From contig JACJNZ010000019.1 in the NCBI GenBank assembly GCA_014695325.1, positions 1-64,000 of the forward strand: DNA of 64,000 nucleotides. The letters run 5' to 3'. The DNA is from Cyanobacteria bacterium FACHB-502. GTDB lineage: Bacteria; Cyanobacteriota; Cyanobacteriia; Elainellales; Elainellaceae. Shown here one piece after another: positions 35,449 to 42,128 of the stretch; the stretch's first letter is position 1, and each line of letters opens with the position of its first letter. The notes under the pieces were generated by a model. It did not search any database. It was given only the letters and a program-made list of their open reading frames with translations, and was not told where the DNA came from. The position numbers and the translations under genes were made by a program.

Positions 35449-35734
35449 AATGCCGCGAAGCTGTTCGCCCCGTCGGAAAAATCAAAAAAATTGCAAAATT
35501 TAGGCTAAAAACTCAGGTGCAGGATTCGAGAGAGAGAGTTCAAGCTGCATGATCGATTAAGACAGCCTTCCAGCTTCTTGGATCGCTGTCTAATTTTTTA
35601 TCAGCGACGATCGTCTGGCTGAGATTTGTGCTGAAAGAATTCTGCGGTAGATTGATGATTGGAAGGGAGTGTTTTGGGTTTGGCGATCGTGCCTAACCAT
35701 TAGAAGCTTAGCAATTAGGAATTTAACCCATTCA

Positions 35735-36070
35735 ATGATTAATCAAAATATTAAGATCATCCAGCTCACTGGAATTCTGGATGGAACGCAAGCAGATCAG
35801 CTCCGGAACGAAGTAAGCCAATGCCTGACTACAGGAGCAAGGTGCGTTTTGATCGATTTTCAAGATGTGACATTTATGGATAGTTCTGGTTTAGCAGCTT
35901 TGATTACAGCAGTTCGCTTAATTCACGATCAGGGCAAAAAACTTTATCTTTGCTCGGTCAATCAGCAGGTCAAGATGCTGCTCGAACTCACAAGCATGGA
36001 TCGAATTTTTCGCATCTTTGCAGATCAGGAAGAGTTTTTGACTCAGGCTAAAGATGAGCCTTCCAGCTAA
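35735..36070 (+). CDS. STAS-domain anti-sigma factor antagonist-like protein
   Basis: This 111-residue protein is a single STAS domain. After strands at NIKIIQLTGILDG, the phosphorylation loop reads VTFMDSSGLAALITAV, with Ser50 or Ser51 as the expected target of an anti-sigma kinase. An open frame upstream to 35669 adds residues outside the domain; the ATG at 35735 starts it correctly. It converges with a receiver-PP2C phosphatase gene, the class of enzyme that dephosphorylates STAS proteins. The two could form a partner-switching pair, as with RsbV and RsbU, but no RsbW-like kinase gene is nearby. Confidence 0.88.
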   Translation: MINQNIKIIQLTGILDGTQADQLRNEVSQCLTTGARCVLIDFQDVTFMDSSGLAALITAVRLIHDQGKKLYLCSVNQQVKMLLELTSMDRIFRIFADQEEFLTQAKDEPSS

Positions 36071-36101: not shown

Positions 36102-37226
36102 CTAGCTAAAATCAGCTCGGACAAGCGCGAGATCATCGCTTAAAGAACGCCCCTGAAACTGCTTAAATAGGCGATTGAGAACCTGCTCCAAATTGGTTTG
36201 CTGTCCAGCATCAATTAATAGCTGAATAAAGCTTTCCAGCCCCCACTGATTACTGGCGTGCTGCACCTCATAGGCTCCATCGCTGTAGAGATAAAGGACG
36301 CTATTCGCAGGAATTGTTGTGACCTTGCAGTTGACTTGAAATTGCTCAATCATACCGATCGGAAAATTAGGTGTTCGCAACAGTTGAGTCATGGTAGACA
36401 GGGCATCACTCGTGAGCAATACGGCAGGTGGATGTCCAGCACTGGCATAAGTGAGCTGTCGAGAACTGGGCTGATAAACGCCGTACCAGATCGTGAAAAA
36501 TTTCTGGTTCTGGCTATGCATTTGAAACGCCTGATTTAGAGCAGTCAAAACGGCTTCGGGATGACGAAAATCGACTTCGGGTAGAGACTGCGATCGCAGC
36601 AAGTTGAGCAGAATCACCGATGGCAAAGCCGCCCCCAGCCCGTGTCCCGACACATCGAGCAAATACAGCACCAGATGGTTGTCATCCAGCCAGAAGTAAT
36701 CAAAGCAATCGCCACCAAGCTGACTGGAAGGAATAAATCGAGCGTCAATAGAGACTTTGCCCTGCACCGGAGCAGGTAGGAGCGATCGAACATAGGCAGC
36801 CGCTTCGCTCAGCTCATCTTCAAGGCGCTGTTTTTGGGTTTGTAAATCTTGATTGAGCTGATACAGCCGCAGCCCAGCCCCAACCCTTGCTTTTAGCTCA
36901 CCAAAATCAACTGGCTTTGACAGAAAATCGTCCGCTCCATTATTCAATCCCTGAATTCGATCTTCGATCGCCATTCTTGAGGTAAAAAGAATAAAAAAAG
37001 TTGTTGTTAAACGAGGTTCTGCCTTGATTTGACGGCAAACTTCTAGACCGTCCATCGCTGGCATATTCCAGTCGCAAATAATCAGGGCAGGCTGAAACTG
37101 TTTTGCCTGTTCGATGCCTTCCTGGCCATTGGCGGCAGTCATCACCTCATGCCCATCATGCTGTAGCAGTTTTTTGACGGTCAAACAGATTAACGGATCG
37201 TCATCAATTACCAGAATCTTAAACAT
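36102..37226 (-). CDS. Response regulator with PP2C/SpoIIE phosphatase output
   Basis: This 374-residue cytoplasmic protein has an N-terminal receiver domain with phospho-acceptor Asp52 and conserved DDD at 8-10. A helical linker (LNQDLQTQKQRLEDELSEAA) follows, then a SpoIIE-type serine/threonine phosphatase domain. Metal-binding acidic residues are visible in QLGGDCFDYF, LLDVSGHGLGAAL, LYSDGAYE and SDDLALV. Receiver phosphorylation would control dephosphorylation of a STAS protein, and the convergent STAS gene 31 bases away is the obvious candidate. It lies downstream of the receiver-Hpt gene on the same strand, with about 30 bases between, so they may be co-transcribed. Confidence 0.92.
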   Translation of the reverse strand: MFKILVIDDDPLICLTVKKLLQHDGHEVMTAANGQEGIEQAKQFQPALIICDWNMPAMDGLEVCRQIKAEPRLTTTFFILFTSRMAIEDRIQGLNNGADDFLSKPVDFGELKARVGAGLRLYQLNQDLQTQKQRLEDELSEAAAYVRSLLPAPVQGKVSIDARFIPSSQLGGDCFDYFWLDDNHLVLYLLDVSGHGLGAALPSVILLNLLRSQSLPEVDFRHPEAVLTALNQAFQMHSQNQKFFTIWYGVYQPSSRQLTYASAGHPPAVLLTSDALSTMTQLLRTPNFPIGMIEQFQVNCKVTTIPANSVLYLYSDGAYEVQHASNQWGLESFIQLLIDAGQQTNLEQVLNRLFKQFQGRSLSDDLALVRADFS

Positions 37227-37258: not shown

Positions 37259-38101
37259 TTAACTTAGTGCATTTTTAAACTGAGCTAGATACTCCTGAAT
37301 ATGATTCAGCGAAGATTCAATTTCGGCTAACAAAGACTCGATCGATTTAAACTGCTGTTGGCCAGCCTGTTGCTCTAGTTCTGCCGCAGCCGATTGGATT
37401 GATTTTGCTCCAATATTAGCACTCGACCCGTTCAAATGATGAGCGGCTTGCTCTGCCAGACGATAGTTTTGCCGATCGATCGCCTGCCGCAAAGTCGTTA
37501 AATGGTCGTGACTGTCCTTCAGAAAAACGTGCAGCAACTCAAGCTCAAACTCTGGAGAGTTATCAGAGAGCTGATGCAGGTAGTGTAGGTCAAGATATGC
37601 CTCCAGCGACAGGGAAACTGCCTTTTGATCCGTTTGAGGAACTTCTGTGGATGGGTTAGAGCCTGGTTGCTCTGGCAATTTAAGTTGTTGCATCCATTGT
37701 TTCAGAACAGCTTCCAGCATCACACGTTGAATTGGCTTCTGAAGATAGTCATTCATGCCTGCGGCGATCGCCCGTTCCTGGTCACGCGGCAAATTGCTGG
37801 CAGTCATGGCGATGATGATTGCTGGCTGAGAATGGGTTAACGCTGTACCACCCGATAATGGGGGACTGGATAAAGCAATCTGCTCGTGCTGCCGGATGGC
37901 GATCGTCGCTTCAAATCCATCCATACCGGGCAGTTGACAGTCCATCAAAATCATGTCGTATTGCTTCTGGGCAGTTTTCTGAACCGCAGAGCGACCGTCT
38001 GCCGCAATTTCGACTATATAGCCCAATGATCTTAGCTGTTGGCTGATAATTTTTTGATTTGTAAGATTGTCTTCTACCAGCAAAATCAATTGGGATGACA
38101 C
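37259..38101 (-). CDS. Receiver-Hpt phosphorelay protein
   Basis: This 280-residue protein joins a receiver domain (Asp54, Lys122) to a C-terminal histidine phosphotransfer domain with His221 in AAHHLNGSSANIGA. The lysine usual after that motif's Leu is Asn224 here. The receiver has an insert of about 15 residues before MTAS. Such pairs are typical of the C-terminal end of hybrid histidine kinases. The frame is open for 34 more codons upstream of the GTG start and reads as a Ser/Gln-rich linker, so it may be a detached tail of such a kinase. It precedes the receiver-phosphatase gene and could pass phosphate to it. Confidence 0.85.
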   Translation of the reverse strand: MSSQLILLVEDNLTNQKIISQQLRSLGYIVEIAADGRSAVQKTAQKQYDMILMDCQLPGMDGFEATIAIRQHEQIALSSPPLSGGTALTHSQPAIIIAMTASNLPRDQERAIAAGMNDYLQKPIQRVMLEAVLKQWMQQLKLPEQPGSNPSTEVPQTDQKAVSLSLEAYLDLHYLHQLSDNSPEFELELLHVFLKDSHDHLTTLRQAIDRQNYRLAEQAAHHLNGSSANIGAKSIQSAAAELEQQAGQQQFKSIESLLAEIESSLNHIQEYLAQFKNALS

Positions 38102-38207: not shown

Positions 38208-38366
38208 CTAATCTTCCAGGAACCAGGCAGCCAACAGCAACCCGATCGCCACACTAAACCAGAACGGTAAACGCAGCGAAAACAGAAATTCCACTGGGAA
38301 ATAGACTGCTTTTTCAGTAAAGAAAACAGTGAGAATCAGCACCATTCCTAACAGAACAATTGGCAT
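38208..38366 (-). CDS. 52-residue small membrane protein
   Basis: This protein is too short for most gene callers. It begins MPIVLLGMVLILTVFF, continues TEKAVYFPVEFLFSLRLPFW and ends FSVAIGLLLAAWFLED, giving two membrane helices around a short conserved-looking loop. Its ATG lies five bases after the stop of the CPXCG protein gene on the same strand, so the two are almost certainly co-transcribed. The composition is clearly that of a real membrane protein and not of random sequence. I do not know its function. Confidence 0.65.
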   Translation of the reverse strand: MPIVLLGMVLILTVFFTEKAVYFPVEFLFSLRLPFWFSVAIGLLLAAWFLED

Positions 38367-38371
38367 TACGG

Positions 38372-38560
38372 CTACCCCTCGTATTCAGTGTCGATCGCAA
38401 TCTCCAGCGTGTCTTCGTCGATCGTGATATACAAGATGTTCGGACGACAGCATACCTGACAATCCTCCACGTAGGACTGAGTAGACCCCGCACTGAAATC
38501 GATAAACGTCAGGCTTGGTTCTCCACAATAGGCACAGACATATTCTGCGGTGTTTTGCAT
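38372..38560 (-). CDS. CPXCG-motif cysteine-rich protein
   Basis: This 62-residue protein has a pair of Cys motifs, CAYCGEPS near the N-terminus and CQVCCRPN 26 residues later, separated by a beta-like region. The rest is acidic (TIDEDTLEIAIDTEYEG). This matches the small CPXCG family, thought to bind one zinc; its function is unknown. Its start lies inside the last codons of the methyltransferase gene (52-base overlap), and the 52-residue membrane gene follows five bases after its stop, so the three form a tight operon. Confidence 0.82.
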   Translation of the reverse strand: MQNTAEYVCAYCGEPSLTFIDFSAGSTQSYVEDCQVCCRPNILYITIDEDTLEIAIDTEYEG

Positions 38561-39234
38561 TCGTTTTTCTCCTGATCATCTTGCTTTTTAAGTGCCTGAA
38601 TCCGCTGCAAGCTGCCGCCCGCCAGTAGAGTTTGCTGAGGATTTAAAAATCCTGCCGCTTCGAGTTCGCTGACCAGGTTTGTTTTTAGAAGCTCCCACGC
38701 CGTTTCGGTTTCAAACAGCCAGAAAAAGCCATAAAGCCCCGGCGTAAAAATCGGATTGGTCGGCTGATGAAAATCAATCAGGGTAAACACGCCGCCCGGC
38801 TTGAGAACGCGATGTACTTCTCGCAAAATCTGGCGGAGCTGATCAAGCTTCATTTCGTGCAGGGCTGCGCTGGTATGCACCAGGTCAAACTGTTCCGCCT
38901 CAAACGGCATCGCTTCTGCCCAGCCTTCGACAAACGCTGCTTCGGGTACATTTTTCTGCGATCGCTGAATCGACAGAGGTGAAGCATCCAGCCCGACCAC
39001 AGGGTTCGATGCGAAGCCCTTGCCCGATTGGGCTAATCGCCGCACGAGGTACCGAGTTGCCTGACCGCTGCCACAGCACAAATCGAGAATCTGCATTGCT
39101 GGATCGATCGACAGTCCTTCCAGTGCCAACTGCCGAAACCGTGCCTCTCCGCCCACCGTTAAAGCCGCCAGACGACTGATGCCATCGTACAGCCATTGAT
39201 AGCGATAGCTTAAATCTCGAAGAATCGTAGCCAT
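38509..39234 (-). CDS. Class I SAM-dependent methyltransferase
   Basis: This 241-residue enzyme has a Rossmann methyltransferase domain. Motif I is ILDLCCGSGQATRYL, an acidic ribose-binding residue follows in VVGLDASPLSI, and later motifs include FDLVHTSAALHEM and VLKPGGVFTLIDFHQP. The pattern resembles the UbiE/COQ5-like and related small-molecule methyltransferases, but the substrate is unknown. The last 20 residues (EKNECKTPQNMSVPIVENQA) lie beyond the fold and overlap the start of the CPXCG gene, indicating translational coupling. It is first in a three-gene operon. Confidence 0.88.
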   Translation of the reverse strand: MATILRDLSYRYQWLYDGISRLAALTVGGEARFRQLALEGLSIDPAMQILDLCCGSGQATRYLVRRLAQSGKGFASNPVVGLDASPLSIQRSQKNVPEAAFVEGWAEAMPFEAEQFDLVHTSAALHEMKLDQLRQILREVHRVLKPGGVFTLIDFHQPTNPIFTPGLYGFFWLFETETAWELLKTNLVSELEAAGFLNPQQTLLAGGSLQRIQALKKQDDQEKNECKTPQNMSVPIVENQA

Positions 39235-39310
39235 AGAGTCATCCGTAGGGAATTTGGAATTGCAGAACCTGGAACAGCGCGTTGGTTTGGAGGTTCTATC
39301 TGTAGTCTTG

Positions 39311-39378
39311 ACTCAGTCTTTGAGAGATTAAGTCACTGCTTGGCTCAGTCACTGCTTGATTAAGTCATTGAGAGATTA
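39311..39378. repeat. Imperfect direct repeats upstream of the methyltransferase gene
   Basis: TTGAGAGATTA appears near 39320 and again near 39368, and AGTCACTGCTTG appears twice between them, with AAGTCA copies interleaved. The 298-base gap 39235-39532 otherwise contains a pyrimidine-rich stretch with two imperfect copies of CCAATTC-type sequence close to the recombinase stop, and no gene. Confidence 0.6.
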
Positions 39379-39532
39379 GCGTTTATACTCCTCCTCTCAA
39401 TCTTGACACCAGGAGCAAGCGTCAGTACAACAAACCGATTGTCCCGTATAGACTCCCAATTCATTTCCAATCCCCAATTCCGAACCACAGATCATTCACC
39501 GCTCCCTTCCCATTCCAAATTCTGAACCCGAA

Positions 39533-40720
39533 TTACAGATTACGAATAATTCGCCGCTCTAGGGCAGCCTGAACCGCTTGCTGCTGATCTCGTCGGGTAA
39601 TCCAGCGATGATACGTGCGGTTATGGATTGCGACAGAGTGACCCATCATGCGGGCAGCCACTGTATCGGGAATCCCGAAATGAATCGTGCGAACTGCCCA
39701 GGCGTGGCGCAAATCGTAGGGCGAAAAGGGAATTTGATAGCGGCGAAACTGCGTGGCAACCTGCTGTCCGATGCGTTGAAGCGTGGTTTGATGCAGATCT
39801 AGATTGAGGGGCGGCAGCCGGACTTCGCGGAGATTAAAGCGATCGACCCATTCCGGGTAAAAGGGCCACACTTCATGGCTTCCGGTTTTGGTGGTGGGCA
39901 AAACTTCGATCGCGGCTTCGGCTTCGCCCTGGATCAGTGCACTGTAGTTGCAAAAGAAAACCTCGTGATTTCGCAGCCCGTAGGTCGCCATAACGCCATA
40001 GACAAATTGCCAGGTCGGGCTGGGAATCGTATCGAAAATCGCAATAATCTCTTCGTCTGACGGCAAGCGGCGCATCTGGGTTTTGCTGGGGCTATAGGTT
40101 CCCCACAGGGTTTTGAGGTCGATCGGCAGTTCCAAATGCAGAAATTGCGCCAGCGCGTTCAGAGCAGTACAGCAAACTTGCCGACTCCGGGCATTGGCGG
40201 GAATAGCTTGAATCGTGCTGTAAATTGCTTCGGTCAGGGTGAAATTGGGATGCGATCGAGTGGTGGCTTCCAGCTTTCGCAGATAGGGCGCGTAGGTTTT
40301 TTCCCAGGTGGTGCGGGTTGCGCCCGGATTGCTATCTTTTGCCAGATGCTCTAGAAAGTGCCGCTCGAACGCCTTCAGCTTTTCTGCCAGATCCATTTGA
40401 TGCAGCCGCTTTCCTCCAGCGACTGGTAAATGTTGCCGCCAGTCAAAGGTATTCTGGATAAGCTGTGCTGCAATGACTTTCACCTGCTGTTCTGCCTGCT
40501 TCAATCCGCTGGGCGTTGCCGGGAGATCAAGCGGAACTCTCTGCTGATGCGCCCGCAGGCGATCGCTTCCCGGACGGGGGGGCAGGGTTCCCCGCAGACA
40601 AAGCTTACTGCCGCGCCGCTCAATCTGAAGTCCCATACGAGCAGCCTTCAGACGTTGATTTGCCTGCTCGATGCGGGGATCGATCGAACTATCGGTGTCT
40701 TTCGATGACGAATCTGACAT
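39533..40720 (-). CDS. Tyrosine-type site-specific recombinase
   Basis: This 395-residue protein has an integrase-like catalytic domain in its C-terminal half. Arg is in YGLRNHE, the second block is YDLRHAWAVR (the usual HxxR His is Tyr), and His is in MMGHS. The nucleophile Tyr is in NRTYHRW. The N-terminal half contains a core-binding helical domain. No element-like neighbours, direct repeats or tRNA are present, so it looks like a chromosomal, possibly stably inherited recombinase. Its target site is unknown. It is divergent from hemH, with 235 bases between. Confidence 0.85.
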   Translation of the reverse strand: MSDSSSKDTDSSIDPRIEQANQRLKAARMGLQIERRGSKLCLRGTLPPRPGSDRLRAHQQRVPLDLPATPSGLKQAEQQVKVIAAQLIQNTFDWRQHLPVAGGKRLHQMDLAEKLKAFERHFLEHLAKDSNPGATRTTWEKTYAPYLRKLEATTRSHPNFTLTEAIYSTIQAIPANARSRQVCCTALNALAQFLHLELPIDLKTLWGTYSPSKTQMRRLPSDEEIIAIFDTIPSPTWQFVYGVMATYGLRNHEVFFCNYSALIQGEAEAAIEVLPTTKTGSHEVWPFYPEWVDRFNLREVRLPPLNLDLHQTTLQRIGQQVATQFRRYQIPFSPYDLRHAWAVRTIHFGIPDTVAARMMGHSVAIHNRTYHRWITRRDQQQAVQAALERRIIRNL

Positions 40721-40955: not shown

Positions 40956-42128
40956 GTGGCAGTTATGGGTCGTGTTGGCGTTCTACTACTCAATCTGGGC
41001 GGACCGGATCAGCTAGAGGATGTCCGTCCCTTTCTGTTTAACTTGTTTTCTGACCCAGAAATCATCCGTCTACCCTTTCCCTGGCTGCAAAAGCCGCTGG
41101 CGTGGCTGATTTCCTCGAGTCGTGCGAATAAATCGCAAGAAAACTACAAGCAAATCGGGGGTGGCTCTCCGCTGCGCCGCATTACCGAAGAACAGGCAGA
41201 CGCACTGCGCAATGCGCTGAAAGAAAAAGGGGAAGACGCTCAGATTTACATCGGAATGCGCTACTGGCATCCCTTCACCGAAGAAGCTGTGGCTCGAATT
41301 AAGCGCGATGGTATTGATCGCCTCGTGATTCTGCCTCTGTATCCGCAGTTTTCGATCAGCACGAGCGGGTCAAGCTTCCGCCTGCTAGAGCAGCTCTGGC
41401 AAGAAGACCCTGCGCTGCACGGGATCGATTACACAGTGATTGCGTCCTGGTATAAGCGATCGGGCTACCTGAAAGCAATGGCAGACCTGATCGCTAAAGA
41501 GCTAGACCAGCTCGAAAACCCGGATCAGGCCCATATTTTCTTCAGCGCCCACGGGGTTCCAGTGAGCTATGTGGAAGAGGCAGGCGATCCCTACCAGCAG
41601 GAAATCGAAGAATGCGTTGAGCTAATTATGCGAACGCTGAATCGCTCGAATCCCCATACGCTGGCGTATCAGAGCCGGGTGGGTCCGGTGGAATGGCTGA
41701 AGCCCTATACCGAAGAGGCGATCGGAGATCTGGCAAAGCAGGGCGTTGAGGATTTGCTGGTTGTACCCATCAGCTTTGTCTCAGAGCATATCGAAACCCT
41801 GCAAGAAATCGACATTGAATATCGCGAAGTCGCCGAGGAAGCCGGAATCGAGCACTTCCATCGCGTGCCTGCCCTCAATACCCATCCCATCTTTATTGAC
41901 GACTTGGCAGATCTGGTGATTTCTGCGATGAATTCGCCCAGTTTAAAGCTGGCAGAAGTCACCCAGATGAAGAAAAGGGTGAAGATGTACCCGCAGGAAC
42001 GCTGGGAATGGGGCATGACCACCACCGCAGAAGTCTGGAACGGACGAATTGCCATGCTGGGCTTTTTGGCACTGCTGATCGAGCTAATTAGCGGTCACGG
42101 TCCACTGCACTTTGTGGGTTTGCTGTAA
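40956..42128 (+). CDS. hemH: Ferrochelatase with C-terminal chlorophyll-binding-like helix
   Basis: This enzyme inserts Fe2+ into protoporphyrin IX to make heme. The catalytic domain starts [20 protein letters not shown] and has the active-site His199 in [13 protein letters not shown]. After residue 340 comes a linker and a single membrane helix with [12 protein letters not shown] (from Glu359), the chlorophyll a/b-binding or HLIP motif known in cyanobacterial and plastid ferrochelatases. That anchors it in the thylakoid and marks the phototroph lineage. The start is GTG at 40956, with an ATG three codons later; a purine-rich GGGAAGG lies before both. The last codons overlap a 17-bp repeat. 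Confidence 0.95.

Follow-up and report, generated by a model that had tools for sequence, protein, structure and literature searches.

The 52-residue open reading frame next to a methyltransferase gene and a Cys-rich gene in the window (the whole 64,000-nucleotide stretch of DNA analysed here) is a genuine conserved gene of a so far unmodelled cyanobacterial family, and its most widespread genomic partner is the Hpt gene downstream of it, not the methyltransferase or the Cys-rich gene. This downstream linkage suggests that the encoded protein belongs to a signalling pathway as a small component at the membrane. The reading we prefer, to which we assign a probability of roughly 0.4, is that the small protein would be a membrane hairpin anchoring or tuning a soluble Hpt phosphorelay that feeds a partner-switching module. 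The features of the locus are collected in Table 1.

Table 1. Genes of the locus in the window, with the basis on which each was named.
Feature	Position	Strand	Basis
Class I SAM-dependent methyltransferase, 241 aa	38509-39234	-	Pfam Methyltransf_25 domain
Cys-rich protein, 62 aa	38372-38560	-	Pfam PF14255
Membrane protein, 52 aa, two predicted helices, unmodelled cyanobacterial family	38208-38366	-	Family profile and predicted helices; ATG start
REC-Hpt response regulator, first gene 3' of the membrane gene (107 nt)	37259-38101	-	Pfam Response_reg 84.6 vs 30.2, Hpt 53.2 vs 24.6
REC-SpoIIE/PP2C phosphatase	36102-37226	-	Pfam Response_reg and SpoIIE
STAS-domain protein, anti-sigma-factor-antagonist type	35669-36070	+	Named from sequence; STAS neighbour cluster

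A single-sequence search with the small protein of the window returned matches in only 10 of 60 relatives, and profiles were therefore needed to follow the family further. Read directly from the DNA, hydrophobic frames of about 50 residues lie immediately 3' of the Cys-rich gene in most of the loci L011-L040. A profile built from 23 such sequences matched 127 of the 388 genomes of the class at E ≤ 0.01, and one built from 86 sequences matched 165 and left 223 without a match; these presence counts are profile-dependent and the absences uncertain, and with E-values calculated per genome some four chance matches are to be expected over the 388 genomes, so that the weakest rows should be read accordingly. 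Most genomes with a match hold a single copy, and members are present also in the small genomes of family f26 (2.1-2.8 Mb). Across a phylum-wide sample, 17 of 194 genomes matched at E ≤ 1e-5, all 17 of them within the cyanobacterial class of the window. Among 86 aligned members Trp48 is conserved in 85, Asp/Glu52 in 80, Pro24 in 79, Pro34 in 76 and Trp36 in 73, and purifying selection on the gene is evident from pN/pS values of 0.11-0.48, below 0.5 in all 27 of 27 pairs, which were hand-chosen for relatedness. The protein is predicted to be a membrane helical hairpin: an AlphaFold2 model calculated from 9 sequences places helices at residues 2-30 and 35-51, with a mean pLDDT of 83.5 and a pTM of 0.40.

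The first-pass annotation had described the frame as not obviously belonging to any family, and this holds for Pfam, NCBIfam and the PDB. The window protein matched nothing in Pfam or NCBIfam at E ≤ 1, 23 of its relatives gave scattered weak matches alone (best 0.043), two profiles of the family (A1 and A3) matched no PDB chain at E ≤ 1, and a search of PHROG returned single weak matches, the best at 0.042. Keyword searching of the open-access literature yielded no paper that we recognised as dealing with the family. The copies of Pfam and NCBIfam used here leave this conserved small gene uncovered.

The linkage to signalling genes was assessed in 100 loci, comprising the window and 99 others hand-picked from profile-matching genomes, with better scores and more genera favoured; one locus (L230), a methyltransferase locus, was left out. 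When the neighbours of the small gene were clustered, a response-regulator cluster ranked first, occurring in 44 loci with 59 of its 63 members on the same strand as the small gene. Within about 5 kb, Hpt domains were found at 50 of the 100 loci, REC domains at 53 and histidine kinases at 33, and domains of partner switching were also frequent (PP2C at 29, RsbW-like at 25, STAS at 18); at least one of these six signalling domains is near 65 loci, and none is near the other 35. Against this stand 52 control loci anchored on the Cys-rich gene and devoid of the small gene (80 loci, less 8 that hold the small gene and 20 shorter than 9 kb), where we found no Hpt, one REC and two kinase domains, no PP2C, RsbW-like or STAS domain, and any signalling domain at two loci; the control is an imperfect one, as most of its loci belong to families that differ from those of many tested loci.

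Of the 50 Hpt genes, 49 lie downstream of the small gene and on its strand. Contig ends truncate several loci, and among the 95 of 100 with 1.5 kb of downstream sequence a same-strand Hpt gene lies within that distance in 47. Between the small gene and the first REC, Hpt or kinase gene the median gap in 57 loci is 162 nt (range -18 to 696), and since such gaps are often wide, co-transcription stays putative; in the window itself the minus strand showed no terminator-like site in the interval from the small gene to the REC-Hpt gene. The Hpt domain occurs in three architectures, being joined to a kinase and REC in 19 cases and to REC in 18, and standing alone in 13. The lone Hpt protein of a locus in family f13 (L195), searched against the window genome, found the REC-Hpt protein of the window as its best match at 4.3e-22, the next being at 7.3e-7. 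Linkage differs between families: an Hpt gene is near the small gene in 21 of 34 loci in the family of the window (f1), 19 of 25 in f16, 4 of 7 in f13, 3 of 3 in f25, 1 of 4 in f34, 0 of 16 in f26 and 0 of 3 in f3. No stretch of 19 residues reaches a hydropathy of 1.8 in any of 18 REC-Hpt or 13 lone Hpt proteins, and one does in 3 of 18 kinase-REC-Hpt and 1 of 3 kinase-REC proteins; the Hpt partners thus look mainly soluble.

All 20 tested genomes hold a homologue of the REC-PP2C protein at E ≤ 1e-60. In two genomes (G012 and G018) the REC-Hpt gene adjoins the small gene while the PP2C homologue sits elsewhere. In four f1 genomes (G008, G013, G016 and G022) the small gene is distant from the best PP2C homologue. 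Conversely, the PP2C and STAS genes occur together without the small gene in all nine loci fetched from family f32, where a diverged copy of the small gene was sought next to PP2C and none of the nine gave a match at E ≤ 0.01; the small gene is therefore not obligatory for the module.

It is reasonable to postulate from this arrangement that the hairpin would hold the adjoining Hpt protein, or a hybrid kinase bearing the Hpt domain, at the membrane, or alternatively that the small protein would adjust the phosphorylation of the Hpt domain. Phosphate would then pass on to the REC-PP2C phosphatase, which in turn would act on the STAS protein within a partner-switching circuit; in many genomes the REC-PP2C and STAS genes would be the output of the Hpt pathway. 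Here we infer the physical contact, the recruitment to the membrane and the direction of phosphate flow. In family f1 the small gene has, in addition, come to lie closely packed with the Cys-rich gene, the methyltransferase gene or both. We offer only tentatively the fuller proposal that an undescribed cyanobacterial mini-protein, resident in the membrane, acts as input to a phosphorelay or as its anchor, and that a single Hpt protein, fused or free, hands phosphate within this relay to a REC-PP2C phosphatase and thereby controls partner switching. If it were true, a conserved membrane mini-protein that precedes Hpt and is kept through fusions and splits would constitute a directly testable upstream component of partner switching.

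HmpU, known from cyanobacterial partner switching, has a REC-PP2C architecture. The locus invites comparison with the Hmp partner-switching system (HmpU-HmpV-HmpW) of Nostoc punctiforme (PMC6495340), as described in the excerpts consulted. As in Hmp, the PP2C and STAS genes of the window are encoded together, and an RsbW-like kinase gene is found near many of the small-gene loci (25 of 100). Unlike Hmp, the window locus has no RsbW-like gene nearby, and neither a small membrane gene nor an Hpt protein is mentioned in those parts of the Hmp descriptions on which we draw. The RsbW-like homologues of the window genome are on contigs C32 (56%) and C34 (37%); the best of them, at C32:38205-38612, is on a different contig from the STAS and PP2C genes. 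In the literature consulted, partner-switching circuits are reported in the control of Nostoc hormogonium development and in that of Synechocystis carbon acclimation, for which the acting phosphatase is described as unresolved. MgrB, which has a single membrane span, gives a precedent, as far as the excerpted account goes, for small proteins that can tune two-component pathways. In that account it is a protein of 47 aa that inhibits the kinase PhoQ (PMC8404706). Both proteins are very small, sit in the membrane by observation or prediction, and are associated with two-component signalling, ours by gene linkage; the likeness is one of description, and our protein differs in having two predicted helices and partners that are mostly soluble Hpt proteins.

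All three frames of the trio of methyltransferase, Cys-rich and membrane genes were found on the minus strand at the positions given by the first-pass annotation, as were the 52-nt overlap by which the Cys-rich gene begins inside the methyltransferase gene and the ATG of the membrane frame, 5 nt past the Cys-rich stop. The final Cys-rich codons, GAG GGG TAG, lie immediately 5' of this ATG and could serve as a ribosome-binding site for the small gene. An overlap of 52 nt is confined to the window genome and the one relative of the same genus, whereas six other contiguous loci have a 1-nt overlap of the stop-start type; the long form therefore resembles an extension of the methyltransferase C-terminus (38509-38560) specific to this genus. 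The designation of the 62-aa product as a CPXCG protein is sound as regards family, since it scores 76.7 bits against PF14255 (Cys_rich_CPXG), for which the cut-off is 25.2; the literal motif is, however, absent, with CAYCG and CQVCC in its stead, and membership follows from the profile score. Genes of the PF14255 type are present in 169 of the 388 class genomes, and searches of the open-access literature for PF14255 and Cys_rich_CPXG by name and accession found no paper. One weak match of the Cys-rich profile to a collagen fusion protein in the PDB (E 0.0011) was judged to be due to chance. From the parts of its description consulted, Brz of Halobacterium salinarum is a tiny zinc-finger protein whose gene lies close to genes under its regulation (PMC2253796); the Cys-rich protein, as a putative zinc-binding protein of similarly small size, is likened to it by description only, Brz being an archaeal regulator of bop. 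The methyltransferase was found in 38 of 60 relatives and scores 73.6 bits against Methyltransf_25 (cut-off 27) and 69.4 against Methyltransf_11 (cut-off 21.2) in Pfam; it matched no solved structure at E ≤ 1e-10, and an assignment as a quinone methyltransferase of the UbiE/MenG type was rejected, the best score of 71 bits being far under the NCBIfam equivalog cut-off of 216.

The packing of these genes had been taken as a sign of functional linkage, and we consider it unlikely that they act as a single functional unit in which the methyltransferase modifies a target and its two small partners, Cys-rich and membrane, either bind the enzyme or bring it to the membrane. What speaks for such a unit is that the trio is a real cluster in close relatives, all three genes being present in 10 of the 34 f1 loci and contiguous in 8; the methyltransferase gene is joined directly to the Cys-rich gene in 8 of the 10 full trios (by the 1-nt overlap in 6 and the 52-nt overlap in 2), and of 28 Cys-rich-linked loci, 27 have the membrane gene at a spacing of -4 to 32 nt from the Cys-rich gene and the remaining one at 145 nt. 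The Cys-rich and membrane genes also tend to occur in the same members of the 388 genomes (104 with both, 61 with the membrane gene only, 65 with the Cys-rich gene only, 158 with neither), with an odds ratio of 4.1 that is uncorrected for shared ancestry. Yet each partner is dispensable within f1 itself, where 24 of the 34 loci are incomplete: 15 have the Cys-rich and membrane genes only, 5 the methyltransferase and membrane genes only, and 4 neither partner. Linkage of the Cys-rich gene extends to 3 of 3 f3 loci but to 0 of 63 loci outside f1 and f3, and the 65 genomes noted above carry it with no membrane-gene match. A methyltransferase match is linked in 15 of 34 f1 loci, 1 of 3 f3 loci and 3 of 63 others (two in f26 and one in f4), these being homologue matches and not established orthologues, and in one genome (G022) the three genes are scattered over three contigs. 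The trio is thus modular and not a fixed unit, and the best reading of its gene content is that the Cys-rich protein and the methyltransferase are facultative neighbours of the small gene. The comparison of gene order that the first-pass annotation had proposed, when carried across cyanobacterial loci, accordingly has two outcomes: the small frame is conserved and the trio order is kept in part of the window's family, but the wider recurrent neighbour is the downstream Hpt gene, which the annotation did not mention.

We also regard as rather unlikely, though deserving of more weight, that the Hpt linkage is inherited gene order devoid of shared function, with the small protein serving some other purpose at the membrane. 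CysE-like and 160-aa genes are conserved alongside the small gene as well, in opposite orientation to it and at 19 and 27 of 100 loci respectively, so that part of the linkage may be inherited order, and the f26 genomes carry the small gene with no Hpt neighbour in any of 16 loci. Inheritance of order alone is, however, not readily reconciled with Hpt genes that hold their strand and side in 49 of 50 cases despite three architectures and replaced upstream neighbours. For an anchored or tuned Hpt relay we count this same constancy, the 50 of 100 loci set against 0 of 52 controls, the persistence of Hpt while upstream neighbours vary by family, the best match of the L195 Hpt to the REC-Hpt of the window, the retention of REC-Hpt apart from PP2C in G012 and G018, the low hydropathy of the Hpt partners and the absence of a terminator-like site before the window REC-Hpt gene; against it we count the 50 of 100 loci without Hpt within 5 kb, among them every f26 and f3 locus. 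Membership in a photosynthetic or respiratory complex of the membrane, as a minor subunit, would suit a hydrophobic two-helix protein whose 17 matching genomes in the phylum sample are all of one cyanobacterial class and whose family extends to the small f26 genomes, but neither profile matched a PDB chain, for which reason a subunit of any solved complex was rejected, and 223 of 388 genomes have no profile match; we judge this role very improbable. Size and hydrophobicity, and nothing else, recommend a small toxin or holin-like element, and the recurrent chromosomal neighbours, the purifying selection, the single copy in most genomes and the isolated, weak PHROG matches render such an element exceedingly improbable.

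Upstream of the small gene the surroundings change from family to family, with Xer-like, methyltransferase and Cys-rich genes in f1 and divergent CysE-like and 160-aa genes in several other families. The CysE-like gene stands beside the small gene; the protein of about 160 aa has a signal-peptide-like start, and its gene is divergent from the small gene at L186, L194, L241 and L248, among others. In the window a 395-aa protein (39533-40720, minus strand) matches Phage_integrase of Pfam below threshold (18.5 vs 27.1 bits); 17 of 34 f1 loci carry a same-strand homologue in the upstream region, and the gene therefore looks like a resident and not a mobile one. Beyond it is a divergent gene (40956-42128, plus strand), which from its sequence we take to be ferrochelatase-like, and whose cluster is represented in 17 of 100 loci, on the opposite strand every time. 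Between the methyltransferase and the integrase-like gene, at 39307-39386, are three imperfect direct repeats of 32 nt that partly overlap.
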